Source of the DNA: a virus
IMG/VR virus record: IMGVR_UViG_3300025141_000649
Location: 1-25,919 of that record
Direction: 5' to 3' (one strand)
DNA length: 25,919 nt
Positions 3 to 14,412 of the stretch are shown one piece after another. Under the pieces are notes generated by a model, which searched no databases, had not been told where the DNA came from, and saw only the letters and a list, made by a program, of their open reading frames with translations. A program made the position numbers and the translations under genes. Numbering within the stretch: position 1 is the first letter of the stretch; each line of letters starts with the position of its first letter.

Positions 3-815
3 CAAAATAGCATCGAGGGGAGAATACTTGACGATACTCCAACTCTGAGGACACAACATAACTTTACTTCCGCAAAAGAATCGGGAGGGGTAATAAAAAT
101 AACAAATCCTGATGGATCTACAACAGAAATCGATATATTCCAAATATCACAAAGGAGTGCCCTTGGGCTCCCCCTTGGAACTTCGGAATTAAACAATCAG
201 AATTTCCCAGCTTTTAAGATGAAGCTCTTCGGTGTACAGATTACAGGAACAGATTTAAATTATACAGGCTCTCTTGGTAATAAAATACCCCAAGTAAATT
301 GCAAATTCACGGCAACAGCACAAGTAAAAAATATATCAGATGTGCAAAAATATGAGGATCAATTTGGATCTGCCACTTCTCCAATAGATCCAAATGGGTC
401 ATATATATCAATGAATATTCCCGATTTTCTTCTAGAAATAACAGAGGATAATACAGATTTTAATTCTGAAAATTTTGACATGGAAGTATTTATGGAACCC
501 TCTAAGGAAAATATGCCCCTTTCCTATTCTGCCATATCTGATAGGTCACCAATTGTGAACGGAATTTTGATAGATCTTCCAAGTAGGGATGATAATTATA
601 TTTCACCAACAGTGGATGATATGGAATTTTATTTTAATATCAAAGCCGATCAACGAATACCTGATATTATCATAGCTGATGCCCACACACATTTTAAATC
701 AAGAGGATTTTATAATGATGAAGCAATTGTACCAATTAGAGAAGGAACAACTTTGGAAATAGTGGATATTTATTCCAGTACTACGGACCCTAAAGACATA
801 GAGGATTGTGATTAA
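3..815 (+). CDS. Virion-type protein of unknown family, 5' end cut off by the window
   Basis: The frame is open from base 3 to the TAA at 813-815, giving 270 visible codons and no stop, so the gene begins before the window. The first in-frame ATG (219) has no ribosome binding site and about 70 codons of similar composition precede it, so I treat it as an internal Met. The protein is acidic and rich in Ile, Asn, Asp and Ser, with alternating hydrophobic stretches that suggest beta structure. I see no membrane segment and no catalytic motif. Its TAA overlaps the ATG of the next gene (TAATG), so the two are translationally coupled. With two larger structural-looking genes downstream, a tail or baseplate role is an inference from context. 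I do not recognise the family. Confidence 0.75.
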   Translation, partial: QNSIEGRILDDTPTLRTQHNFTSAKESGGVIKITNPDGSTTEIDIFQISQRSALGLPLGTSELNNQNFPAFKMKLFGVQITGTDLNYTGSLGNKIPQVNCKFTATAQVKNISDVQKYEDQFGSATSPIDPNGSYISMNIPDFLLEITEDNTDFNSENFDMEVFMEPSKENMPLSYSAISDRSPIVNGILIDLPSRDDNYISPTVDDMEFYFNIKADQRIPDIIIADAHTHFKSRGFYNDEAIVPIREGTTLEIVDIYSSTTDPKDIEDCD

Positions 816-3331
816 TGAGAAATTTATCCAGACATATTGCTGCCGCCCGGTTCGAGGCACCAAGCCTCAAGCAAGCAAAGAAAAGCATGGGCATATCTTT
901 TGAAGATATAACACTAAACAACACTGATCTTTTATTTTCGATTGGTGCCACCTTAAACTTAACTTTTCTGGCACCAAATATTCGCCCACCAAAAGACATT
1001 AATAGATTTAGCGGCACATTTATAAGAGCCGCCCTGACCAGTGATATTGACTTAATAAAGACATTAAGTGCTGCAACTGATATACGGGAATTTTCAAAGA
1101 TTATCCATTCAAACACACATAAAGTTCAGCAAATTAATATTCCTTATGATGCCCACCTCCCCAAAAGAGAGATTAATTTTAAACCTATAAGCCTTCACAA
1201 TGGAGAAAATCCAGAAAATTTGTGCATGTTCGGAATGGTTTTACAAAAAAACAACAAAACTAATAAAGAAATGTTATTATCTGATATCCTAATGCAAGTC
1301 ATAATATCAGATAATATAGTTTTGAGATCCAAAAACTTAGTAGATTTAAGAAACTTAAAATTTGATTCTTATTTAGATTTTGAAATAATTAATCAGGTAG
1401 AAAATAACAATGAAGCATATTTTTCTGATCAATTTGTTTCGCTAGACCCATCCGGGTATCTAAAGTTCATTTTTTTCTGGGATAAAATACAATTTTTGAA
1501 AGAAAAGTCAGTATTTGCAAATATTTTGAAAAATGGATCACTGGCCCAGACGCAAGAGAAGATAATTGCGGATTCTAGAATCGGCAATATTGAAATAATT
1601 CGCAAAAGAGTTAAAAAGAGCATAGATGGATTTTCTAGCTTTGATGCAAATCAGGCCAACGATATAATTATTTATTCATCCGATGATAAGTCAGGAGACT
1701 TGATACCAAATGAATCAAAGGATATCAGAACTGGCGCGACAAAAGCACAAATTAGCAGCAATAAAATAATCAAAAATTCATCAAACTATATATCCTTTTC
1801 TGTCAATGATCATTTTTGCAAAAAGATAAAAATGGGGATGTATCAGTATCATGTCAGGGTACAGGTGGAAGATGGAATGTTAAAATTCTTAATCGACTCA
1901 CTGAATATTCTAAGAGAAGTGCAGAATGTATTTGAGAGATATGAGGGTGTCTACGATAGCCCATCCTTATCCTTGAAGAAGAGGAAAAATTTAGGAATAT
2001 TAAACATATTAAGAATATTATTTTCCTTAAAGACATTTTCCGATACCCAAATAGAGAGAATGCAGCAAGAATTTCTTGCATTGTGTCGGACACCGCAAGG
2101 ATTGTCTAGGGTCATGGATTTTAATCGATCTTTGATGATAAAAATAAGTTATGCCCTCGGAAAAAGAGGTGTGACATCGACCGATAATAAAGGGAAGATA
2201 TATTCAAAAGATACAAGCAAATTGTTCTTTCTGGAAGATAGCCAAAAATTCCCAGAAATTGTTGATGTATCCAAGTTGATAAATATAGAGAGTGAATATT
2301 TTGATATAAATTCAAGACCGTCCACAGGCGCATCTACATTTTCCGTAAACGACATAGAGAAAAGGTTTTTGCAAGAGTTTAAGAAAAATATGGCTTTTGA
2401 AGGAGACTATGGTGATATTAATTTTGCAACTTTGAATAAAAACTTGAGTAATGATATGGGGGGCACCAATGAATCAGATAAAATAACTGAAAATTTGTTC
2501 AATTTTGGCACAACCTTTTTCTCCTATCTGTCTCCCGCTTCATCGATTATATTCGGTACAGAAATCAATAATCAAAAAAATCCTTCTGCCTATGTTCCCA
2601 CCACCTCACCGGCTATGGTGAGTCTCTCGCAAGAATTGACAAAATTGGGAGTGAGAATCCTAACCCCCAGAGAGGTGGGTGCTTCACGAGCCAAGAAAGA
2701 AGAAACTTTGTGCTCTGAGTCAGTGGTTGGGGATATAAGTTTAAATATTGAGAAAACATACGACAGCCAATCATATGTTCCAGCTTATACCGACCTGAAA
2801 GATTTTCATGATACGATGAGGGATTCTCAAAATTTAACATCCGGTATAATTAAATATTACAATAACTTCAATTTAAAAATTAGTGACTATGATTTGGATT
2901 CTCCAAATAATTTATTGTCTGGCACAAAGTCTAGGGCAATTAACAAAAATATTGAAGAAATGCCAAATCAAATCAGATCCCTTTTCGCCTCGAAATCTGA
3001 TGGTGTGAGGGACAAGTGGGCCTCCATGGAGAATGATTTCTTTGAAAACCCATCATCCATAAAAATGATGCAAGAAAATTATAGCAACCTAATTAGAGTA
3101 GAAGTTTTGTCTGGCTTCGAGAGGGATTTATATGGATTTGAAAGTGTCAAGATGCCGATATTCAAAAGATTGGAAATGTCAGACATGCAAGGGTTGTTAT
3201 CTGGAGAATCCCTATTTTGCAGGACCTTTATTATGGACAACAAGGTGATCGGTGTGGGACAAAAGAATGTCAAAGACAATTCAATTAAAATGTATTATAA
3301 TAAACACTTTATCATAACGAGAGGAGATTGA
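815..3331 (+). CDS. Large virion-type protein, unknown family (838 aa)
   Basis: Starts at the ATG inside TAATG at 815 and ends at TGA 3329-3331. The protein is 838 residues, rich in Asn, Ser, Ile and Lys, without signal peptide or obvious membrane segment. The first 20 residues are basic and Ala-rich, followed by mixed alpha/beta-looking sequence. The region around residues 365-430 is more helical and charged. No enzymatic motif is visible. Length, composition and tight linkage to the genes on either side point to a structural role, probably tail or baseplate, but I do not recognise the family. A 5-bp GC hairpin (852-866) in the early codons is probably incidental. Confidence 0.75.
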   Translation: MRNLSRHIAAARFEAPSLKQAKKSMGISFEDITLNNTDLLFSIGATLNLTFLAPNIRPPKDINRFSGTFIRAALTSDIDLIKTLSAATDIREFSKIIHSNTHKVQQINIPYDAHLPKREINFKPISLHNGENPENLCMFGMVLQKNNKTNKEMLLSDILMQVIISDNIVLRSKNLVDLRNLKFDSYLDFEIINQVENNNEAYFSDQFVSLDPSGYLKFIFFWDKIQFLKEKSVFANILKNGSLAQTQEKIIADSRIGNIEIIRKRVKKSIDGFSSFDANQANDIIIYSSDDKSGDLIPNESKDIRTGATKAQISSNKIIKNSSNYISFSVNDHFCKKIKMGMYQYHVRVQVEDGMLKFLIDSLNILREVQNVFERYEGVYDSPSLSLKKRKNLGILNILRILFSLKTFSDTQIERMQQEFLALCRTPQGLSRVMDFNRSLMIKISYALGKRGVTSTDNKGKIYSKDTSKLFFLEDSQKFPEIVDVSKLINIESEYFDINSRPSTGASTFSVNDIEKRFLQEFKKNMAFEGDYGDINFATLNKNLSNDMGGTNESDKITENLFNFGTTFFSYLSPASSIIFGTEINNQKNPSAYVPTTSPAMVSLSQELTKLGVRILTPREVGASRAKKEETLCSESVVGDISLNIEKTYDSQSYVPAYTDLKDFHDTMRDSQNLTSGIIKYYNNFNLKISDYDLDSPNNLLSGTKSRAINKNIEEMPNQIRSLFASKSDGVRDKWASMENDFFENPSSIKMMQENYSNLIRVEVLSGFERDLYGFESVKMPIFKRLEMSDMQGLLSGESLFCRTFIMDNKVIGVGQKNVKDNSIKMYYNKHFIITRGD

Positions 3332-3334
3332 TAA

Positions 3335-6300
3335 TTGACACCACCAAAGCCACTACCGGGATCCAGAAGCGGATCACCAGCATCAATTAATCCCACTGCA
3401 GCTAGTGGGGCTTCTAATATTAAATTACCAGATGGTATGCCCAAAACGGCTCATCGTACTACTAAATATATTAGTCCTACCTCGACATCACTGAGTAATA
3501 TATCCACTTCAGACTATTCCAGAGATCCAGACTATGATAGTGCAGGAACTAATTCATCCAGCAATTATATAATCTCTACAGAGTTTGAGACTTCGGCCGA
3601 CCCTGTCAGAAGTTCTCTGCAAAGATATTGGGTATCCAAAGGGTCCGATATCAATTTTAAAAAACTGCCACTTCCTGCAGAAATTAGCTTGAAAAGCAAA
3701 GGCAAAAAGAGGCAGGATATCCTTAATTTCGAAGATGGATTGCTATATGACGGAATCTCGGAGGAGTTTGAAATTTCAATTTCAAAATCAACCCTTGGTG
3801 GAGATCATACTGACGATGCTACATATTCCGCTGACTCAAAGCTAAAAATGTCCTCTGGCCTATTTTCTGCTATGGATGAATTATTACTTTCACAAAAATA
3901 CAGTACCATGGAGGTTTATTCACTTAATTGTAAAAAGCCAATAATATATGCCTCAGATCACAGATCCGACACTCATACAGGAACTCCACAGGTTGATATA
4001 TCATTTGTGTACAATCATGAAATGCCAAATTATGAACAACTAATCTCAGACCAATCAATCAAGGAATCTTCTTTGTTGAACTATTATAAAGATTACGAAA
4101 TAATCAAAGATTCTCAAATCGCGCAACCCGGAACGAAAAAGGTAAAATATGATTATGATGGAAAAGTTAGAGATAGAATAGTTTATGGCCAAAACACTAG
4201 ATCACGATTTGATGATGAATTGACAAAAAATTCCAATAAAAAATCCAGAACAGATACAAACATTATTGTCTCGGAATCGTCCACTTTAGACATTTCATCG
4301 AAAAATTCCGACCTCCTCTCATTACCTTTTTATATAAAAATAAACATTGGAAAATCTAAAAGACCCTCCGCGCAAGACGATTTGAGTCAAAATCTTAAAG
4401 ATATTATTATGTCAGACCAATCAGATTGCGATAAAATAATGGACTATTGCTTAAAAATGACATCTCCAGGCGCTAATCCGGAATACTTGAAGAAACGATC
4501 ATTTAATTATTCTTATTTTGAATCCGCTTATGAAAATCCAGAACAAACCAAGATCTCCTTAAACAAAACACTGGATAATGAAAGCATCCTAATGATGGAT
4601 GCCTTAGATATGTCGCAGAATTTGGGCAATGAAGATATTATTTTGAATTCGAATACGATCCCCGCCACCCTAATCGGGGAAGGTCCAATCTCGACCACCA
4701 CTGGAGACTATTATTTATCCAGAGAAATTAAGAAATTATTTGATGCTTCCGAGACTTCCAAACTTCAAATTCCATATTCCAGCCTATTGGCCGGAAAAGC
4801 CGGCTTTTATTCTACGGATGTGATATTTTACAAAATATCCAAATTTGACGAAACGGACTTAAAGACGCCCATACAGAATATCTTCATACCAAACAAAGGT
4901 GCAAGCGGACAGACATATATTGATTTTCAAGTGAAATATGGCAAGAGATACACATATAAGATATATGCATATAAATTTATATCTGGACTACAATATTCGT
5001 TATCTGTATCCAAACCATTAAACTATTCCGCCTATATAGCTGAGTTGACAGAATATTTTAATATCAAGGACACCCTCACGAAGTTCGTTGTAAAATATGA
5101 AAACAAAAATGACTTGACTGATGACGACAGATATCGCTTGGGTTCTTATAAGGAGGATAAGGAGGAAGGAGATGATTGGATATCATCGGAAACAAGCTTC
5201 GACAAAGCCTTACAAAACTTCAAAGAAAATCTTGCAGAAACTAAAGAAGATGGTAGTCGAATCAGCAACAAAGAGGAAAGTAAAAAACCAAACAGCTCTA
5301 GGGAATCAAGATCTGCACAAATGCGATTGGCACTTAAGGCCCTAATCAAATTATATCCCGACACAACAGATTCCGCTGGTATCCCACTGAGAAATATAGT
5401 GGAAAGTATTTCGGAAATTATAGGAAAAGATAGTGCAACCGGAACGACCGGTGTGTATCACACAACTGATACTGACACAACAGGTGCATCATCGACAGAT
5501 AGAGATCTGCTAACCAAGGCTAAATCATCCATAGAAGACTTTTTTAAGTCTATTCGCGATCTAATAAGTGAGCTTGAATCTAGACTCGATAATAAAAATG
5601 GGTTCGGCGACAAAAAAGATGACAGAAAAAAGAAATTGCAGGATGCGATGGACATGATAGATGCTATCTACCGTAGCGAAGATACCATGATAAATGCTAT
5701 CGCAGATGTAAAGAGGTCAAACACTGATGACACATTTGATGTAAATATGCGCACCCTAAGTACTCTCACATATCCAGTGATATATTTATCAGAAATACCT
5801 TATTTCAATGATGCAGGTGCCATTTTGGATAATCCTCCAATTTTTCCTGATATTAATTTTATTCCTTACCGTGGAAGTGATAAAAACATTTCCTTCTTTA
5901 TAAATTCGGGAATAGGAAAAATAATCGATAATCCGATTGTGTTTTCTGAAGAAGAGTCGCAATTCATCTCTCTTTTTAGGGAGTCAAAAAAGCTCAACCA
6001 AGTGGAGCCAATAACTTTCAAATCGGATGAATCAAAAAACATGGAAGCCTCTTTCGAGATATACCGACTAAAGAATCCACCATCATCCTATCTGGATTTC
6101 AGCCAGTCATTATACCAGACTCTTGCAGAGTCATTTAAAGGGGGTATCCAACATCTAGGCTCTGTATCCTTTTTGGAAAAGATAAAGCCAAATGTTACAT
6201 ATTATTATATGTTTAGACAAAAGGATTCTAGGGGAGTTATATCTAACCCCTCTACCGTATTTTCAGTTTTGATCGTAAACGAGGGCGGCATGACATTCCC

Positions 6301-6577
6301 GATAATAAAAGAATATGAGTTCCCCCCCACGGAAAAGGTATATGATCGCACCATGAAGAAATTGATAAATGTGGTACCTCCCGTATATCAAATATCACCC
6401 ACAATGCCCAATGCATCGTTTGAATATAAGTCCTGTGTCTCTGGAGATAACATATCTTATTTGATGGGCCCATCCGGGAATCAACTTTTTGGAAAAACTT
6501 TCAAAATCAGATTTACCTCAAAAAAGACAGGCAGACAGATAGATCTAAATGTCACATTCGAGGCTACAGTGGCATGA
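3335..6577 (+). CDS. Very large virion-type protein with probable fibronectin-III-like segments (1080 aa)
   Basis: The start is TTG at 3335, three bases after the previous stop; GAGGAG at 3321-3326 is well spaced for it and the next in-frame ATG is about 100 bases on. About the first 75 residues are Ser/Thr/Pro-rich and probably disordered. Two segments have the alternating strand pattern and YxYKIYAYK / YYYMFRQKDS style core strands of fibronectin type III-like domains, at roughly residues 485-560 and 900-985. Between them, about residues 600-775, lies a charged Lys/Glu/Ser-rich region with a Thr-rich linker. This looks like an extended multi-domain tail, baseplate or fibre-associated protein. 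The fold assignment is by eye. Family not recognised. Confidence 0.75.
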   Translation: MTPPKPLPGSRSGSPASINPTAASGASNIKLPDGMPKTAHRTTKYISPTSTSLSNISTSDYSRDPDYDSAGTNSSSNYIISTEFETSADPVRSSLQRYWVSKGSDINFKKLPLPAEISLKSKGKKRQDILNFEDGLLYDGISEEFEISISKSTLGGDHTDDATYSADSKLKMSSGLFSAMDELLLSQKYSTMEVYSLNCKKPIIYASDHRSDTHTGTPQVDISFVYNHEMPNYEQLISDQSIKESSLLNYYKDYEIIKDSQIAQPGTKKVKYDYDGKVRDRIVYGQNTRSRFDDELTKNSNKKSRTDTNIIVSESSTLDISSKNSDLLSLPFYIKINIGKSKRPSAQDDLSQNLKDIIMSDQSDCDKIMDYCLKMTSPGANPEYLKKRSFNYSYFESAYENPEQTKISLNKTLDNESILMMDALDMSQNLGNEDIILNSNTIPATLIGEGPISTTTGDYYLSREIKKLFDASETSKLQIPYSSLLAGKAGFYSTDVIFYKISKFDETDLKTPIQNIFIPNKGASGQTYIDFQVKYGKRYTYKIYAYKFISGLQYSLSVSKPLNYSAYIAELTEYFNIKDTLTKFVVKYENKNDLTDDDRYRLGSYKEDKEEGDDWISSETSFDKALQNFKENLAETKEDGSRISNKEESKKPNSSRESRSAQMRLALKALIKLYPDTTDSAGIPLRNIVESISEIIGKDSATGTTGVYHTTDTDTTGASSTDRDLLTKAKSSIEDFFKSIRDLISELESRLDNKNGFGDKKDDRKKKLQDAMDMIDAIYRSEDTMINAIADVKRSNTDDTFDVNMRTLSTLTYPVIYLSEIPYFNDAGAILDNPPIFPDINFIPYRGSDKNISFFINSGIGKIIDNPIVFSEEESQFISLFRESKKLNQVEPITFKSDESKNMEASFEIYRLKNPPSSYLDFSQSLYQTLAESFKGGIQHLGSVSFLEKIKPNVTYYYMFRQKDSRGVISNPSTVFSVLIVNEGGMTFPIIKEYEFPPTEKVYDRTMKKLINVVPPVYQISPTMPNASFEYKSCVSGDNISYLMGPSGNQLFGKTFKIRFTSKKTGRQIDLNVTFEATVA
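4790..4808 (+). other. Terminator-like hairpin inside a coding region
   Basis: GCCGG (4790-4794) pairs with CCGGC (4800-4804) around the loop AAAAG, and TTTT follows at 4805-4808. The shape is that of an intrinsic terminator, but it lies in frame inside the 1080-residue gene, where it encodes Ala-Gly-Lys-Ala-Gly-Phe. The hairpin is seen in the sequence; any attenuating effect is speculative. Confidence 0.3.
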
Positions 6578-6582
6578 GTATC

Positions 6583-6610
6583 AAAATAAAAGGTTTTTTA
6601 TTTTATTTTT
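6583..6610 (+). terminator. AU-only hairpin followed by a U tract, possible weak terminator
   Basis: AAAATAAAA (6583-6591) and TTTTATTTT (6596-6604) form a perfect 9-bp inverted repeat with loop GGTT, then ATTTTT. It sits six bases after the stop of the 1080-residue gene and just before a candidate late promoter, which is where a transcription boundary would be expected. With no G-C pair in the stem it would be a weak terminator at best, and the repeat may only reflect local AT richness. Confidence 0.3.
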
Positions 6611-6635
6611 AAACTATTTATTTTTGAAACTTTCG
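6611..6635 (+). promoter_or_regulatory. Candidate phage late promoter, copy 1 of AACTATTTAT
   Basis: The AACTATTTAT core is at 6612-6621 and is followed by TTTTGAAACTTTCG. Cores also occur at 14419, 21814 and 23756, and the 21814 copy matches over most of this longer stretch. It lies 36 bases upstream of the ATG at 6658, in one of the few real intergenic gaps (80 bases). The minus strand reads ATAAATAG, close to the T4 late element TATAAATA. Function is inferred from recurrence and position. Confidence 0.5.
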
Positions 6636-6657
6636 CTTTTTAAAAAGGAAAAATATA

Positions 6658-7533
6658 ATGGGTTTTTTAGACAATAGTGGCGATATTATTTTAGATGCCG
6701 TACTCACTGATTCAGGCCGCGAACGCCTAGCCAGAGGCGACGGCAGCTTTAAAGTGATGAAATTCGCACTTGGCGATGACGAGATTAATTACACAAACTA
6801 CAACAAGGCTGCAGCAAGCATCTCCAAGGACTTGGAAATCTTACAGACTCCAGTATTAGAGGCATTTACGAATAATACATCGCTGATGAAATCCAAGTTG
6901 ATCACAATCACGAGAACAGACCTTCTTTATTTGCCGGTTATTAAATTAAATGGAAATTTAGGAGTTGCAAAATATACAACAGAGGATGTTGTGCTTGTCA
7001 CTTCTGACGAAACGACAACAAATGGTATGACTATCAGCGACTATCTAAATGGCTATGATATCCTTGGTGGTAAAAATCTTCGAGCGGATCAGGGATTAGA
7101 CACCAATGCAACACCACCGACAATACAACTGAGTTCGGATTTGGTTGAAACTCAATATATAGTGGAAATGGACAATCGCCTCGGAGCACTTTATTCTTCT
7201 GATGGCACTCCCTCTCCTGTATCTTTTATCGATGACGACTCTATCGCGAGCTATTTCTTTTCCAGAGATGGTATTTATGTGAAAGATAATTTAGATACCA
7301 CAGACGATGGAGGGACCCAGCAAGTTATTCAAGGGCCTAGAGGAACATACTTGGACTTCAAAATAAGAGCCTCGCAAAATTTGAGATCTAGTACATATTT
7401 GTTCGACCTCCTTGGTTCTACATTTGTTATTGGGTCCACTACTTATAAATATATTGATACGAACATCAGAATCAGCGGTGCAACTACTGGCTATAGCCTG
7501 AGTGTTCCGGTTAGATTCATTAAACAAAACTAA
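6658..7533 (+). CDS. Virion structural protein, probably tail-associated (291 aa)
   Basis: Starts at the ATG at 6658 after AAAAAGGAA (6642-6650) and ends at TAA 7531-7533. The N-terminus has a compact motif (GDIILDAVLTDSGRERLARG) followed by FALGDDEINY. From memory, this opening is typical of a conserved structural family in uncultured marine tailed phages, though its exact place in the particle is unknown to me. The rest is Thr/Ser/Asp-rich with beta-strand periodicity and ends in SVPVRFIKQN. No signal peptide, membrane helix or enzymatic motif. It is first in a block behind a candidate late promoter, followed 15 bases later by two paralogous virion-like proteins. Confidence 0.75.
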   Translation: MGFLDNSGDIILDAVLTDSGRERLARGDGSFKVMKFALGDDEINYTNYNKAAASISKDLEILQTPVLEAFTNNTSLMKSKLITITRTDLLYLPVIKLNGNLGVAKYTTEDVVLVTSDETTTNGMTISDYLNGYDILGGKNLRADQGLDTNATPPTIQLSSDLVETQYIVEMDNRLGALYSSDGTPSPVSFIDDDSIASYFFSRDGIYVKDNLDTTDDGGTQQVIQGPRGTYLDFKIRASQNLRSSTYLFDLLGSTFVIGSTTYKYIDTNIRISGATTGYSLSVPVRFIKQN

Positions 7534-7548
7534 GAGAGATAAAAAAAC

Positions 7549-8595
7549 ATGGCAGTTACATTTAAAAATCTTGTATCCGATAGGGATGTCGCAAATACTA
7601 GAACATTATTGAACGAGGCAATCCCAATCACCGGATCTGTTGTTTCCGGGACATACAGCGATAACAACATTAAAAATTATGCTCACGGTATGTTCCAATC
7701 TGTTTACGATTATCCATACCTATCTTCTTCTGCAAACCATATTTTTGATTTGACGGCAGGATACTCAGCAGATTCTTCACTTTCTAGTTCTGCAGCTTCC
7801 CAGAATTCCAAAAAGATAAATATCTATAGCCAGATGGCACAAGTTTTAGTAGGATATGATTCAGATGGGAATATCAGGGATTTTGACAGGGATGGCTCAT
7901 TGGCCTCTGGCGATAAGTTGAAAGAATGTGTTTTCATCAATCTTGCAAGACTGCTAACGAAAGACGAAATTCAAAAGGGTTCTTTCATTTTGAGTGTTGC
8001 AACAGGCGCCGCCCCAACAGCTCCAGATTTCTCAAGCCTGTTAACCATCTCGGATTATGGAGCAAATACGACAGATGTGGGCTATAAGACCAATTCTCCA
8101 GCGGGAGACTATGCACTTCTTTATACAAGTTCTGCCACTCCTAACTCCACTTCGGGAGTAGGTTTACTGTATTATCAGGCCGGCATTGCAGTACTTACAG
8201 CCTCTGTATTCGATGGGTCCTTTGGTGCTCCCGATGCAACTTATGACACATCTTCGATAGATACCGTCTTGACTGGGGCACAAATATCTTCATCTTGTGA
8301 CGGATTCAGAAACAGAATGAATAATCTGGCATTCAACAATACAACCGAACTTAATTCTACTATTTATTTCTGCAGAGCAAATACAAGTGATTTTAATTAT
8401 AGCTCAAATCCCACTTATCTGTCTGGAAGTAAAATAAGGGTAAAAGAGCAGGAAACAGACTCTCCGATCTCTTATGTTACGACAGTTGGGCTTTATTCTG
8501 CAGACAATGAACTGTTGGCAGTTGCTAAATTATCGGAACCACTCAAGAAAGACCCCTCTAATGAATTTACCTTAAGGGTAAGGCTGGATTACTAG
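7549..8595 (+). CDS. Virion structural protein, paralog of the next gene (348 aa)
   Basis: Starts at the ATG at 7549 behind AGAGAGA. Rich in Ser, Thr, Ala, Asp and Tyr, with a beta-rich look and no membrane segment. The C-terminal 80 or so residues (FNYSSNPTYLSG, then TVGLYSADNELLAVAKL, then LKK and FTLRVRLDY) align by eye with the C-terminus of the 8613 gene. A mid-protein stretch (GLLYYQAGIAVLTAS) also matches one there (GVVLYNEGFLLLTGS). This suggests an old tandem duplication of a tail, baseplate or fibre component. A late-promoter-like string (CTATTTATTTCTG) near 8360 falls in coding sequence and I do not call it. Exact role unknown. Confidence 0.75.
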   Translation: MAVTFKNLVSDRDVANTRTLLNEAIPITGSVVSGTYSDNNIKNYAHGMFQSVYDYPYLSSSANHIFDLTAGYSADSSLSSSAASQNSKKINIYSQMAQVLVGYDSDGNIRDFDRDGSLASGDKLKECVFINLARLLTKDEIQKGSFILSVATGAAPTAPDFSSLLTISDYGANTTDVGYKTNSPAGDYALLYTSSATPNSTSGVGLLYYQAGIAVLTASVFDGSFGAPDATYDTSSIDTVLTGAQISSSCDGFRNRMNNLAFNNTTELNSTIYFCRANTSDFNYSSNPTYLSGSKIRVKEQETDSPISYVTTVGLYSADNELLAVAKLSEPLKKDPSNEFTLRVRLDY

Positions 8596-8612
8596 AATAG
8601 GAAGAAAAGAAA

Positions 8613-9767
8613 ATGTCTTTTAAAAAGTTTGAGAAAAAAGACATTCTTCGCAATGTTATTGAAACGCACCCCAAGGTTCGCTTTGATATATATGATTCTA
8701 AGTTGTATTATAACAACCGGTCTCATCTAAGTGGTGCTTTTTCGGAGAATGTGAGGAATGTCCCATCGGGATTCATATCACTTTATGAGCTAAATATTGA
8801 TAAATCATCCGGAAAAAATGATTTTATTTATCCATTTGTGAAAAAAAGCTCCGATTTAATCAAATTTAAATCAGCCACAGCAACAAGCTTTAATGCAGAT
8901 GAATACGGTACTGAACTCACAGGATCATATCCTCTATCTGCCAGTATTTCTAGATATGTCGCAACATCAAATTCTGACAGGAGGATTAATGCTCTCAACA
9001 GTGCATTGGAATATTATTCGGTATTAAACCCTGAATATAGAAACATACAGAATTACTCCACCTTCCAGACTGCCAGTATAATAGACATTCCATCTATTTT
9101 TTACGGCTCATCTATTGAGAAGGGCAGCATTGATTTGAAATTTTATGTCTCTGGTACTCTCATCGGCCATCTCCAAGATAAGAATAAAAATGGGGAATTG
9201 ATTCAGGTTGCCCCAGCAGATAGCCCTTATACAATTTCGGCCTCCGTCGCAGGTGTTGTCCTGTATAATGAGGGCTTCTTGCTCCTGACGGGATCATGGA
9301 ACTTGAGTGATTCACATACAGAAGATTATGATGGAACAGCAAAACCTCCTTCTTGGATTTATTACGCTGTCGGAGCAAATGATGGAACTGCTACAGGAAT
9401 GATACCGAGTTCCAGCTATGCAATGGAATTTAATGGGCAAAATTATGTCCCTTCTTATACAATGTTCGCCCATGCTGAAATGGGCGAATTTAACCACTCA
9501 AATAATCCAACATATATTGCCTATGGACAATCAAAGACAACATTGTCGGGTGCTTATGTCTTTGAAGAGCCATCAGATCTACTCATCCAAAATACGGTTA
9601 GTTCATCTTACGTGGACCCAACGGGATCCTTTGAAAAAGTAACTTATATTTCCAAAGTTGGAATATATGATAAAGATAAAAACCTGATTGCAATCGCAAC
9701 TCCCTCAACACCTATTAAGAAAACCCAAAATAGAAACTTAACCTTTAAACTTAAATTGGATATTTAA
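8613..9767 (+). CDS. Virion structural protein, paralog of the preceding gene (384 aa)
   Basis: Starts at the ATG at 8613 behind AGGAAG; its TAA overlaps the ATG of the resolvase gene (TAATG). The protein opens with a short charged segment, then a Tyr/Asn/Ser-rich region (PKVRFDIYDSKLYYNNRSHL) and beta-like sequence. The C-terminus (FNHSNNPTYIAYG, then SKVGIYDKDKNLIAIATPS, then PIKK and LTFKLKLDI) parallels the 7549 protein. It is longer than its paralog by an insertion before the last conserved block, with a Ser/Pro/Thr stretch. Probably a surface or tail-associated particle component. Its coupling to a Holliday-junction resolvase suggests the block is read late, as packaging starts. Confidence 0.75.
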   Translation: MSFKKFEKKDILRNVIETHPKVRFDIYDSKLYYNNRSHLSGAFSENVRNVPSGFISLYELNIDKSSGKNDFIYPFVKKSSDLIKFKSATATSFNADEYGTELTGSYPLSASISRYVATSNSDRRINALNSALEYYSVLNPEYRNIQNYSTFQTASIIDIPSIFYGSSIEKGSIDLKFYVSGTLIGHLQDKNKNGELIQVAPADSPYTISASVAGVVLYNEGFLLLTGSWNLSDSHTEDYDGTAKPPSWIYYAVGANDGTATGMIPSSSYAMEFNGQNYVPSYTMFAHAEMGEFNHSNNPTYIAYGQSKTTLSGAYVFEEPSDLLIQNTVSSSYVDPTGSFEKVTYISKVGIYDKDKNLIAIATPSTPIKKTQNRNLTFKLKLDI

Positions 9768-10309: not shown

Positions 10310-11245
10310 ATGAGTGAAAAACTTTCCCTAATTTCGAATGTTTTAGGTCGATATTTCAAATCGGGCGGCGAATATCTCTTTAAGTGTCCATATTGCAAAC
10401 ATGCTAAAAATAAGTTCTCTGTCAATATTGAAAAGAACGTATTTAAGTGTTGGATTTGCGATGCAAGAGGGTCAAGCCTATACAGAATTTTCCGTCGGTT
10501 TGGGACATTCAACGATCAAGAGAGGTGGAAATCTCTAAGCGGGTTTAAGCAGGATCTGAATGAGTTCGCGGATATCTTCAAGGAAGGGTCGAATGAGGAG
10601 GAGATCGAACAAATTCTGGAATTACCACAAGGGTTCCGCAGCCTTACTAGACCCTCCAGTGGTCGGGCTTACAAAAGGGCACTTGAATATCTTGCATGCC
10701 GAGGATTAAATAGATCAGACATTTTAAAGTGGAAGATAGGATATACCACAGAAGGTCCATACCAGAACAGGATAGTAATACCATCTTTTAATTCCGATGG
10801 TGATCTAAACTATTATATTGCCAGAACATTTTCTGATGATTACAGGAGATACAAAAACCCACAAGCCTCTAGAGATATTGTCTTTAATGAGCTTTATGTT
10901 GATTTCGATCAAGAGGTCATTATCGTCGAGGGGGTCTTCGATGCCATTAAATGTCACAACGCAGTTCCGATATTGGGTTCTACAATAAGAGAAACCTCTC
11001 GCCTTTTCAGAAAGATCATCAAAAATAATACACCAATCTTACTCGCACTTGACCCCGATGCATCTAAGAAATCTGGTTTTATAAAAAGGCTCTTTCTTAA
11101 ATACGGAATCGAAGTGAGGGAAATAACATACGAAGATGATAGAGATTTAGGAGATATGTCAAAAGAAGAGGTTTTGAGCCTAAGCAAGAAGGCTAATTTT
11201 GTATATAGCCATGATAGCTTAATAAGTGCTATCTCGGCAATCTAA
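10310..11245 (+). CDS. DnaG-type DNA primase (T4 gp61-like), zinc ribbon plus TOPRIM (311 aa)
   Basis: Makes RNA primers for lagging-strand synthesis at the phage fork. The N-terminal zinc ribbon uses C26, C29, C47 and C50 (CPYC and CWIC). The TOPRIM domain has the catalytic Glu at E207 in VIIVEGVFDAI and the metal-binding D248-P-D250 in LLALDPDAS. DRDLGDM near residue 278 is also typical of the family. Length is close to T4 gp61 (about 340 aa) and no helicase domain is fused. No Shine-Dalgarno precedes the ATG, and the promoter's predicted start is on the ATG, so the message may be leaderless. The Mre11-Rad50 fusion follows 14 bases later, probably in the same transcript. Confidence 0.9.
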   Translation: MSEKLSLISNVLGRYFKSGGEYLFKCPYCKHAKNKFSVNIEKNVFKCWICDARGSSLYRIFRRFGTFNDQERWKSLSGFKQDLNEFADIFKEGSNEEEIEQILELPQGFRSLTRPSSGRAYKRALEYLACRGLNRSDILKWKIGYTTEGPYQNRIVIPSFNSDGDLNYYIARTFSDDYRRYKNPQASRDIVFNELYVDFDQEVIIVEGVFDAIKCHNAVPILGSTIRETSRLFRKIIKNNTPILLALDPDASKKSGFIKRLFLKYGIEVREITYEDDRDLGDMSKEEVLSLSKKANFVYSHDSLISAISAI

Positions 11246-11259
11246 GAGGAGAACAGATT

Positions 11260-14200
11260 TTGAAGTTTGCTCACATTGCAGATACACACATTAAGAATTT
11301 AAAGTTTCATTATGAATACAGGATCATATTCAAAAAGCTGTATGAGGCACTCAAGAAAGAGAAGGTCGATTATATCATCCATTGTGGTGATATTGCACAC
11401 ACAAAAACACAACTCAGTCCAGAATTTGTGGAAATGTGCACCAATTTCTTCAGAAGTCTGGCAGATATTGCCCCAACATACATTATTCTGGGAAATCATG
11501 ACGGGAACCTTAAAAATAGTAGCCGACAAGATGCTCTGACCCCTATTGCTGAAGCCCTAAATCATCCGAGGCTTCATCTATTAAAAAAGTCTGGAGAAAC
11601 TCACCTGGGCGATTCTGTGGCCATAAATGTTTTATCGGTTTTCGATGAAGATAATTGGATATCCCCCACTGATAAAGAAAAGATTAATATTGCTCTATAT
11701 CATGGTTCTGTTTCGGGTGTCAAAACCGATACTGGATATGTGATGGAGCACGGTGATCATCCAATTGAAATCTTTGGGGGGCATGATTACGCATTTCTGG
11801 GAGACATCCACAAGACCAATCAGAGTTTGGATAGTGAGGGTAAAATCCGCTATAGCGGCTCGACTGTACAACAAAATCACGGAGAGTCAAACGATAAAGG
11901 GATCTTAATCTGGGATATCCAAAGTAAGAAAGATTTTTCTTGCAAACATATTGAATTAAAGAACCCCAGGCCTTTTGTTACCATCAATTTGACTCCAAAG
12001 GGGAAAATGCCAAAGGGCATCAAAATCGCCCCAAAGAGTCGCCTCCGCCTTGTATCAAACAATAATTTGTCACTGGATGTAATGAGGAAGGCCCTGGAAG
12101 TTGCCAAGAGAAGGTTTAAGCCGGAAAGCATAACCTTCCTAAATCGTTCTGCGGGCAACCGTGGAGATATTAAGGATATGGCCAATGACCTCGAAATCGC
12201 CGATCTGAGAAGTATGTCCGTCCAAAAATCTCTCATTAAAGAGTATCTTAAGGACTATGAGGTCGCCGAAGATGTAATGTGTCGTATTTTGGATTTAAAT
12301 TCGAAGTATAATCAAATAGCAGAGGATAACGAGGAGATTTCAAGAAATGTCAACTGGAGACTTAGGTCTCTAGAATTTGACAACCTTTTTAATTATGGAG
12401 AATCCAATTCTATTAACTTTGATAATCTAGAAGGGATTGTTGGCATATTTGGCAAGAATTATTCCGGAAAATCGAGTATTATTGATTCTTTATTATATAC
12501 GGTATTCAATTCAACTTCTAAAAATGACAGAAAGAATCTAAACATCATTAATCAGAATCGAGAGTCGTGCTTGGCCAAAGCTGTGATATCGATTGGTGAT
12601 TTGGACTACACTATTCAGAGGGAATCAATAAAATATCTCAAGAAATTGAAGGGCAATACCACACTCGAAGCGAAAACAAATGCAAATTTTAGTGTTTATT
12701 GTCCAGTCGAAGAAGACCAAGAAATATTAAATGGGATAACAAGGAACGAAACTGATAAAAATATCAGAAAAGTTTTTGGAACATTGGATGATTTTTTATA
12801 TTCTTCTATGTCCAGTCAGCTTGATTCTTTATCCTTTATCAAAGAGGGTTCCACCAAGAGAAAAGAAATTCTGGCAAATTTCTTGGATCTTAAATTTTTT
12901 GACAGTAAATTTAAGCTGGCAAAGGAAGACGCCGCCTCCACACGAGGAGCACTGAAAAAACTGGAAGGAAGGGAATTCAATCAAGAAATACTAGAAGCTA
13001 GAATGGAACTATCAGAGTGTGAAGAAAAATTAAAGAAACAGCGAAAAGCTTGCCAGAGTTATAAGGGAGCTATCTCAAGGTACACAACACAAATTGCTGA
13101 AATAAGAGAAAAAATTAATTCAATTCCTGCCGAGATAATCGATGTGGTGAAGGTTAGAGGAGACCTGGCTCGCAAGAAAAGTCAGTTGATGAGTGTAAGA
13201 GATCAGATTAGAGACGATAGAGCCCTTCGTGCAGAAAAGAAAAATGAATATAAGGCAATTTGTGATTTTCTCAGTAAATATGAGAAGGAAAAGCTATATG
13301 GAGCCCGCCAAAGCATTGAGGGATTGCGGGATGATGTCAAACAGCTTCAGCAGAAATTGTCAAAAGAGTCCGCTGATAAGGACAGAAATCAAAATAGGGT
13401 TAAATTATTGGATGGAATCCCTTGCGGGACATCTTTTCCTACATGCAAATTTATCAAGGATGCACTGGTTGCGGAAGCAAATATACCAGAAAATTTTAAA
13501 AGAATCAACGCCATCCAATCCAGCATTGAAACAATCGGCACAGAAATATTCTCCTTAAATCCGGAGTTAAACGACACAAAGATTCAGGCTTATGAGAATA
13601 TCGTTGGAGAAAGAGACTCTTTGTCCAACAAAATCACAAATTTGGATTTGAAAATTGATAAAAATATGGCATGCACCTCCATATTATTAGTGGAGATCGA
13701 GAAGTTCGAAGAAGAGGTCACCGACTACGAAAATAACAAGGATGCAATCGAAAATTTGGAAAGCCTAAATTCTCAACTCACCACTTTTCAATATGAACAA
13801 CAAAATTTTGAGATAAGAGACGAAAAATGCAACACCAAGATTTTGAACCTCTATAAGTCCGTTGGTTCGACTGAGGAAAGGGTGAAACAATTGATAAAGC
13901 AAAAGCAAGACTTCGAAGATTTGCAGGAAGAATTTTCTGCCTTTGATTTATATATGAGGTGCATGCACCCCAATGGAATTGCTTTCGATGTAATTCGCAA
14001 AAAGCTGCCGGTTATTAATGAAGAGATTGGCAAAATTCTGTCAAATATCGTAGATTTTGAGGTTTTCTTTGAAGACGACGGAAAGAGACTCGATATATTT
14101 ATCAAACATTCGATGTATGACCCGCGACCTTTGGAGATGGGTTCTGGGGCCGAGAAAACAATCGCTGCCACGGCCATCCGCCTCGCTCTTCTGAGTGTTT

Positions 14201-14412
14201 CAAACTTGCCAAAGGGAGATATCTTTGTTCTCGATGAACCCGGCACTGCTTTGGACGAAGAAAACATGCAAGGTTTCGTAGATATTCTTGACATTATTAA
14301 ATCTTATTTTAAAACAGTACTTCTTGTTTCCCATCTCGATAGCCTAAAAGATTGTGTGGATATGCAGATCACTATTGACAAAAAAGATGGCTTTGCTTCG
14401 GTAAATATCTAA
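11260..14412 (+). CDS. Fused Mre11-Rad50 (SbcD-SbcC, T4 gp47-gp46) recombination nuclease (1050 aa)
   Basis: One reading frame carries both subunits of the DNA-end processing nuclease that feeds recombination-dependent replication and can degrade host DNA. Residues 1 to about 340 are the Mre11 phosphoesterase: D8 and H10 (IADTH), D44 (HCGDIAH), GNHD (78-81), H148, H175 and GDIH (181-184). From about 365 comes the Rad50 ATPase: Walker A GKNYSGKS (398-405), coiled coils with an apex CGTSFPTC (C722, C729), a signature-like MGSGAEKT (960-967), Walker B with D992-E993, and the switch His H1025. In T4 these are two proteins of about 340 and 560 aa. The apex is C-x6-C, not the usual CxxC zinc hook. 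The start is TTG at 11260 after AGAGGAGAA. No internal stop or frameshift. Confidence 0.92.
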   Translation: MKFAHIADTHIKNLKFHYEYRIIFKKLYEALKKEKVDYIIHCGDIAHTKTQLSPEFVEMCTNFFRSLADIAPTYIILGNHDGNLKNSSRQDALTPIAEALNHPRLHLLKKSGETHLGDSVAINVLSVFDEDNWISPTDKEKINIALYHGSVSGVKTDTGYVMEHGDHPIEIFGGHDYAFLGDIHKTNQSLDSEGKIRYSGSTVQQNHGESNDKGILIWDIQSKKDFSCKHIELKNPRPFVTINLTPKGKMPKGIKIAPKSRLRLVSNNNLSLDVMRKALEVAKRRFKPESITFLNRSAGNRGDIKDMANDLEIADLRSMSVQKSLIKEYLKDYEVAEDVMCRILDLNSKYNQIAEDNEEISRNVNWRLRSLEFDNLFNYGESNSINFDNLEGIVGIFGKNYSGKSSIIDSLLYTVFNSTSKNDRKNLNIINQNRESCLAKAVISIGDLDYTIQRESIKYLKKLKGNTTLEAKTNANFSVYCPVEEDQEILNGITRNETDKNIRKVFGTLDDFLYSSMSSQLDSLSFIKEGSTKRKEILANFLDLKFFDSKFKLAKEDAASTRGALKKLEGREFNQEILEARMELSECEEKLKKQRKACQSYKGAISRYTTQIAEIREKINSIPAEIIDVVKVRGDLARKKSQLMSVRDQIRDDRALRAEKKNEYKAICDFLSKYEKEKLYGARQSIEGLRDDVKQLQQKLSKESADKDRNQNRVKLLDGIPCGTSFPTCKFIKDALVAEANIPENFKRINAIQSSIETIGTEIFSLNPELNDTKIQAYENIVGERDSLSNKITNLDLKIDKNMACTSILLVEIEKFEEEVTDYENNKDAIENLESLNSQLTTFQYEQQNFEIRDEKCNTKILNLYKSVGSTEERVKQLIKQKQDFEDLQEEFSAFDLYMRCMHPNGIAFDVIRKKLPVINEEIGKILSNIVDFEVFFEDDGKRLDIFIKHSMYDPRPLEMGSGAEKTIAATAIRLALLSVSNLPKGDIFVLDEPGTALDEENMQGFVDILDIIKSYFKTVLLVSHLDSLKDCVDMQITIDKKDGFASVNI

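Follow-up and report, generated by a model that had tools for sequence, protein, structure and literature searches.

A family of single-chain phage Mre11-Rad50 proteins with variable cysteine spacing at the coiled-coil apex

T4 gp46 and gp47 act in DNA-end processing in recombination-dependent replication. They are made from separate genes, as in the T5-like, cyanophage, Campylobacter and most Herelleviridae relatives that we examined. In the 25,919 nt of viral DNA analyzed here (the window), a single frame appears to hold both proteins. Moreover, the CxxC zinc hook is absent from the tip of its Rad50 coiled coil, where the sequence reads CGTSFPTC, i.e., two cysteines (C722 and C729) with C-x6-C spacing. 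Is this a genuine fusion protein, and how might two such chains be joined at their far ends?

Window positions 11260-14412 on the plus strand form one open reading frame of 1050 codons and a stop, uninterrupted by internal stop codons. The start codon is TTG, with an AGGAG ribosome site 8 nt before it. The following features were assigned, with their basis in brackets:

11245-11251, plus strand: ribosome binding site AGAGGAG, 8 nt ahead of the TTG start (sequence)
11260-14412, plus strand: fused Mre11-Rad50 (gp47-gp46 or SbcD-SbcC) gene, 1050 aa (Pfam, PHROG, AlphaFold2, Foldseek)
11260-11955, plus strand: Mre11-type metallophosphoesterase domain, residues 1-232 (Pfam, ligand columns)
11956-12213, plus strand: putative Mre11 capping domain, residues about 233-318 (position and secondary structure)
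12214-12330, plus strand: helix-loop-helix, putative Rad50-binding domain of Mre11, residues 319-357 (helices 319-329 and 337-357 in the model; family as in PMC3175470)
12331-12351, plus strand: Mre11/Rad50 junction, seven residues, 358-364 (model, relatives)
12352-12882, plus strand: Rad50 N-lobe, residues 365-541, with Walker A GKNYSGKSS at 398-406 (Pfam, model, conservation)
12892-13404, plus strand: outgoing coiled coil, residues 545-715 (model)
13405-13446, plus strand: apex loop, residues 716-729, LLDGIPCGTSFPTC, with C722 and C729 (sequence, model, relatives)
13447-13965, plus strand: returning coiled coil, residues 730-902 (model)
14056-14406, plus strand: Rad50 C-lobe, residues 933-1049, with signature S962-G963, Walker B D992-E993 and switch H1025 (sequence, model, Foldseek, conservation)

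The original prediction had read one 1050-codon frame with Mre11 followed by Rad50 domains, and reading frame, Pfam, PHROG, AlphaFold2 and Foldseek agree on this layout. Pfam assigned Metallophos (PF00149) to residues 1-185 (4e-15, N-terminal part searched), AAA_23 to 371-604 and SMC_N to 368-1025. Comparison with the SbcD and SbcC families, proposed along with the prediction, gave matches for both halves (PHROG SbcC-like 7e-53, SbcD-like 8e-34). A single-chain AlphaFold2 model built from 59 relatives (mean pLDDT 83) contains the nuclease domain and two helices within 319-357; its Rad50 part has the first strand at 365 and extends into a long coiled coil, in which helices 676-715 and 730-765 flank the apex loop with C722 and C729; these two positions had been placed correctly. 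In Foldseek searches the Rad50/SbcC half matched 7zr1_C (3e-22) and 7yzp_C (1e-14), and the Mre11/SbcD half 3qg5_C and 7yzp_A (both about 1e-11) as well as 3thn. The Mre11 part hence has a calcineurin-like phosphoesterase fold (PF00149, Foldseek), and the Rad50/SbcC layout is present with Walker A, signature, Walker B and switch histidine at the ends of a long antiparallel coil.

The catalytic residues are conserved throughout the 163 distinct relatives described below. K404, S962, G963, D992 and E993 are invariant and H1025 is found in 161 of the 163. All Mre11 ligand positions (D8, H10, D44, N79, H80, H148, D182 and H184) are likewise filled and invariant, but the first histidine of GHxH is Asp182 (window 11803-11805), which stands at His206 of P. 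furiosus Mre11 and is aspartate in every relative. The "full set" of Mre11 motifs originally claimed is thus complete in that each position is occupied, but not canonical at D182. Also, H47, equally invariant, is a histidine instead of the third aspartate of GDxxD. GHxH is intact in gp47 of T4 and of most other phages, and the T5-like D12 protein examined has GDxH.

Scanning with the window protein found 22 contigs; alignment-based scans found many more, and at least 296 loci carry a relative. Whole proteins in a single frame occur at 222 of these, and 163 are distinct after removal of duplicates and one outlier. Most of the remaining loci are cut by contig ends, L184 looks frameshifted, and one group is split inside Mre11; a split at the Mre11/Rad50 junction was found at none of the at least 296 loci. 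The junction segment (residues 345-379) keeps a length of 35 residues in 148 of the 163 relatives, and in the AlphaFold2 model about seven residues lie between the last Mre11 helix and the first Rad50 strand. Among named phages, full-length relatives were found in Microcystis phage Mel-JY01 and in uncultured huge phages.

A single frame of this kind could in principle arise from an assembly join or a sequencing error between two adjacent genes. The 163 distinct full-length homologous frames come from many metagenomes and share the sequence and length of the junction; moreover, the annotated genome of Mel-JY01 carries a fused homologue (WWT39521.1). Because so many distinct frames are homologous over their full length, we discard an assembly artefact or a chance frame and regard the probability of such a join as negligible. 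An internal start for a separate Rad50 was also rejected, the in-frame starts at 307, 319, 340 and 344 having no clear ribosome site and all lying before the Rad50 domain. The window protein is a single-chain Mre11-Rad50 fusion. The prediction hence holds in that gp47 and gp46 (SbcD and SbcC) are genuinely one chain whose apex is not CxxC, and its relatives are neither all split nor all of the CxxC type. The fusion is not new as such, since phage and viral Mre11/Rad50 fusions have been in print since 2011, when Yoshida, Claverie and Ogata described them in bacteria, eukaryotes and a Bacillus phage as well as in Mimivirus R555, and inferred a phage origin for many of the abundant marine relatives (PMC3175470). 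As to the original suggestion that a fusion might alter the assembly of the complex, the 2011 paper argues that the order of the domains fits the geometry of the separate-chain complex, in which the Mre11 C-terminus lies about 28 Å from the Rad50 N-terminus (PMC3175470). For structural work, the fused chain offers Mre11 and Rad50 at 1:1 from one gene.

One set of relatives carries the gene in two pieces, divided within Mre11 just after GDIH at about residue 190 (L271:2291-6448, L025:2944-7169, L254:255-3533, L118, L119, L157, L212, L293 (L148), L298 and L304). The gap at L271 and L025 holds an endonuclease-like gene (Vsr-like or TnsA-like C-terminus); at most other split loci the two halves lie end to end or share a few bases (ATGA). 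A self-splicing intron was rejected, as Rfam gave no match and the gaps are either empty or occupied by an endonuclease-like gene. At the clearest split loci the N-terminal half has gained an acidic tail (REVEIEIDEDDL) and the C-terminal half a new basic N-terminus (MGKKIKIKVKK), as though the two Mre11 pieces were held together by an extended beta hairpin. At two further loci, L077:8180-8359 and L094:7714-7896, a downstream fragment duplicates the end of the gene, roughly its last 60 codons. A 64% identical relative, L028, lies on the chromosome of a candidate division WOR-3 MAG (CP070664.1), where the match ends at residue 627; prophage, decayed copy and viral contamination are candidate origins.

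The apices of the relatives fall into four main types. Type A, to which the window protein belongs, reads PCGxx[FY][PS]xCKFIKDA, with C-x6-C and at times C-x7-C spacing; type B is EYDPDCxxCxxNxFVKDA (CxxC), type C DPxFLRGCKCL (CxC) and type D KMCPSCFPLI (CxxC). Among 127 loci not chosen by apex, 103 had type A with C-x6-C, six type A with C-x7-C, ten type B, three type C, three type D and two other apices, i.e., PCGPDC (C-x3-C, L090) and PCDCFEHLPTC (three cysteines, L287). C-x6-C is therefore the commonest apex, and a one-off mutation is ruled out. Within the C-x6-C proteins P721, C722, C729 and I732 are 100% conserved, P721 and both cysteines by definition of the class, and G723 and F731 99%. 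A DNA pattern for PCGxx[FY]xxCKFI gave at least 120 matches, and all those listed lay within the same fusion family. CxxC occurs at the equivalent position in relatives of the window protein at 50-54% identity, and relatives up to 96% identical in their head domains carry CxxC, C-x7-C or CxC there. The segment 712-740 holds two cysteines in 145 of the 163 relatives and three in the other 18, never fewer than two; in the rest of the coil cysteine makes up 0.5%.

The Rad50 hook has been described as a highly conserved or invariable CxxC (PMC9569753, PMC1533848); here we find a common environmental family in which another cysteine spacing is the norm. The C-x6-C apex appears to be previously unreported in the open-access literature. 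An oceanic hinge-less SMC without CxxC is a different thing, i.e., a cellular actinobacterial SMC that by its authors' account has no viral homologue (PMC12153180).

The coil contains a second pair of cysteines:

13051-13053, plus strand: C598, mid-coil cysteine (sequence, relatives)
13828-13830, plus strand: C857, its partner on the opposite coil strand (sequence, relatives)

Both are present in 74 and both absent in 87 of the 163 relatives, with two discordant cases. For six independent pairs on supported branches, a change at one position is accompanied by a change at the other in nearly all draws (median p 0.03, sign test). Counting from the helix breaks of the model, we infer that C598 and C857 would be separated by no more than about one to two turns, and a cross-strand contact is likely.

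The original prediction had suggested that the apex might bind metal differently or dimerize by another route. Because at least two apex cysteines are always kept at variable spacing, these sequences favor a metal clasp of altered geometry and speak against a wholly different route. The simplest reading is a putative metal clasp to which each chain would contribute two cysteines of variable spacing. Alternatively, C722 and C729 might form an intrachain staple, by a disulfide or a metal bound within the chain, that shapes the loop, with the arms joined by another surface or not at all. The conserved PCGxx[FY]PxCKFI frame indeed resembles a structured loop of its own; also, gp46 proteins examined outside the fusion family all have CxxC, so the C-x6-C geometry is unlike any hook compared. 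However, a flexible metal site of four cysteines accounts more easily than a staple for spacings of C-x1-C, C-x2-C, C-x3-C, C-x6-C and C-x7-C with at least two cysteines always kept, and close relatives carry CxxC versions at the same place. We therefore consider the staple improbable, and think it probable that the protein is a functional gp47-gp46 fusion whose chains would dimerize by a metal clasp with two cysteines at variable spacing.

We compared the apex types with a head tree calculated from nuclease and ATPase columns only, testing groupings by apex type with the AU test. The tree requires at least ten changes of apex type, and single head clades were rejected for type B (p 2.9e-37), type C (p 3e-4) and type D (p 1e-4), which argues for repeated exchange or repeated re-evolution of the apex across heads. 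Individual comparisons point the same way. L072 (type A, C-x6-C) and L088 (type D) are 96% identical in their heads and 30% in the apex segment; the apex of L080 is 38% identical to that of L088 and 25% to that of its head sister L073; and L058 is nearest to L086 in the apex (41%) and to L031 in the head (68%). Synonymous sites were saturated in most pairs tested, which ruled out a proof of recombination by synonymous divergence. Exchange is hence argued from shared specific sequences, not from breakpoints, and for a given pair recombination and very fast apex evolution are not cleanly separable.

From these shared sequences we infer that the apex is an exchangeable cassette, its types being swapped between relatives by recombination. 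A tip that evolves very fast under weak constraint, with CxxC and C-x6-C recurring in place, would require no exchange; it would agree with the rapid divergence of the whole coil, which outpaces that of the heads in nearly all pairs, and with an identity that declines gradually toward the tip. Against it stand the long specific sequences common to one type across unrelated heads (EYDPDCxxCxxNxFVKxA, DPxFLRGCKCLxEAE). Moreover, within one type the apex can be conserved where the flanking coil is not, e.g., L001 and L029 are 100% identical at 716-738 and about 50% at 681-715. Evolution in place is thus rather unlikely in our estimation, if still a serious contender. More broadly, we tentatively suggest that in this abundant family of marine phages the Rad50 hook may be a natural exchangeable dimerization cassette with several cysteine geometries, C-x6-C being the commonest and CxxC not universal, and that the apex type may set which copies pair; this larger claim is one we would sooner question than assert. 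If true, pairing by apex type could separate self from non-self in co-infection. Close relatives differing at the apex alone, such as L072 and L088 with their 96% identical heads, form natural matched pairs in which hook requirements and mutual exclusion of types could be studied.

What might the protein do for its virus? A DnaG-type primase gene precedes the fusion, and genes for T4-type terminase, portal gp20, head protease and gp23 follow it; five large upstream genes (window 815-9764; 838, 1080, 291, 348 and 384 aa) had no PHROG match and no Pfam match above cut-off. In each of ten virus contigs of 123-204 kb the fusion gene was the sole SbcC-like and the sole SbcD-like match, and a second copy of gp46 or gp47 was not found in them. 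The fusion therefore presumably does the gp46/gp47 job. A role in DNA-end processing for recombination-dependent replication, and possibly in host DNA degradation, is likely by analogy because the catalytic residues are conserved, the gene is single-copy and the surrounding gene set is of T4 type. The protein would then serve a T4-related myovirus as its recombination or end-processing nuclease in the form of a single chain, in which the Mre11 part would act as metal-dependent nuclease and the Rad50 part as ATP-driven clamp. Two chains would form the usual 2:2 complex, each supplying both domains. Solved complexes, together with a junction that is short and conserved in length, suggest that the Mre11 helix-loop-helix would sit at the root of the Rad50 coil. 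At their far ends the coils would be connected, as in the zinc hook, by a metal site of four cysteines, two from each chain; in the commonest version the two would be six residues apart in the conserved PCGxx[FY]PxCKFI loop instead of in CxxC.

The T4 and cyanophage gp46/gp47 pairs are the same enzymes with presumably the same role in recombination-dependent replication, and the window shares with them T4-type terminase, portal, protease and capsid genes. They differ in their separate genes, the CPTC (CxxC) hook, the canonical GHxH of gp47 and a shorter Rad50 chain (560 and 573 aa compared with about 690 in the window protein). Closer in architecture is the Mimivirus R555 group, which combines an N-terminal Mre11-like and a C-terminal Rad50-like domain in one chain (PMC3175470). 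R555 also has the histidine in the GDxxH motif and an aspartate in place of His206, and its relatives are marine, enriched in viral size fractions, adjoin phage primase genes and are the sole copy in their virus (PMC3175470). In contrast to our analysis, that paper did not mention the hook and confirmed full fusion for few metagenome sequences; we compared R555 by its description.

Mel-JY01 WWT39521.1 and the uncultured huge phage LR756508 are 29% identical to the window protein along almost the whole length and arrange their domains in the same order, but their apices are CxxC (CKHC and CEYC), and in LR756508 the Mre11 part is interrupted by an endonuclease-like gene. A search of the open-access literature found no publication on Mel-JY01. 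Single-chain SbcD-SbcC proteins also occur in the cultured Xanthomonas phage XacN1 (ORF305) and Listeria phage LMTA-57 (AID17555.1). These are very distant (about 20%), XacN1 having a CPYC hook and keeping GHFH, and look like other fusion events. Of two Listeria phages (L306:1917-4946 and hit H55), LMTA-57 is annotated as single-chain, and LMTA-34 was matched by the SbcC part alone; a recent independent fusion or a sequence difference is possible. Finally, an engineered yeast Rad50 with an SMC hinge in place of the hook still works (PMC6969161), the tip therefore being swappable without harm to the heads. Compared with that engineered exchange, the one in the phage family seems to be natural and to take place between cysteine spacings.
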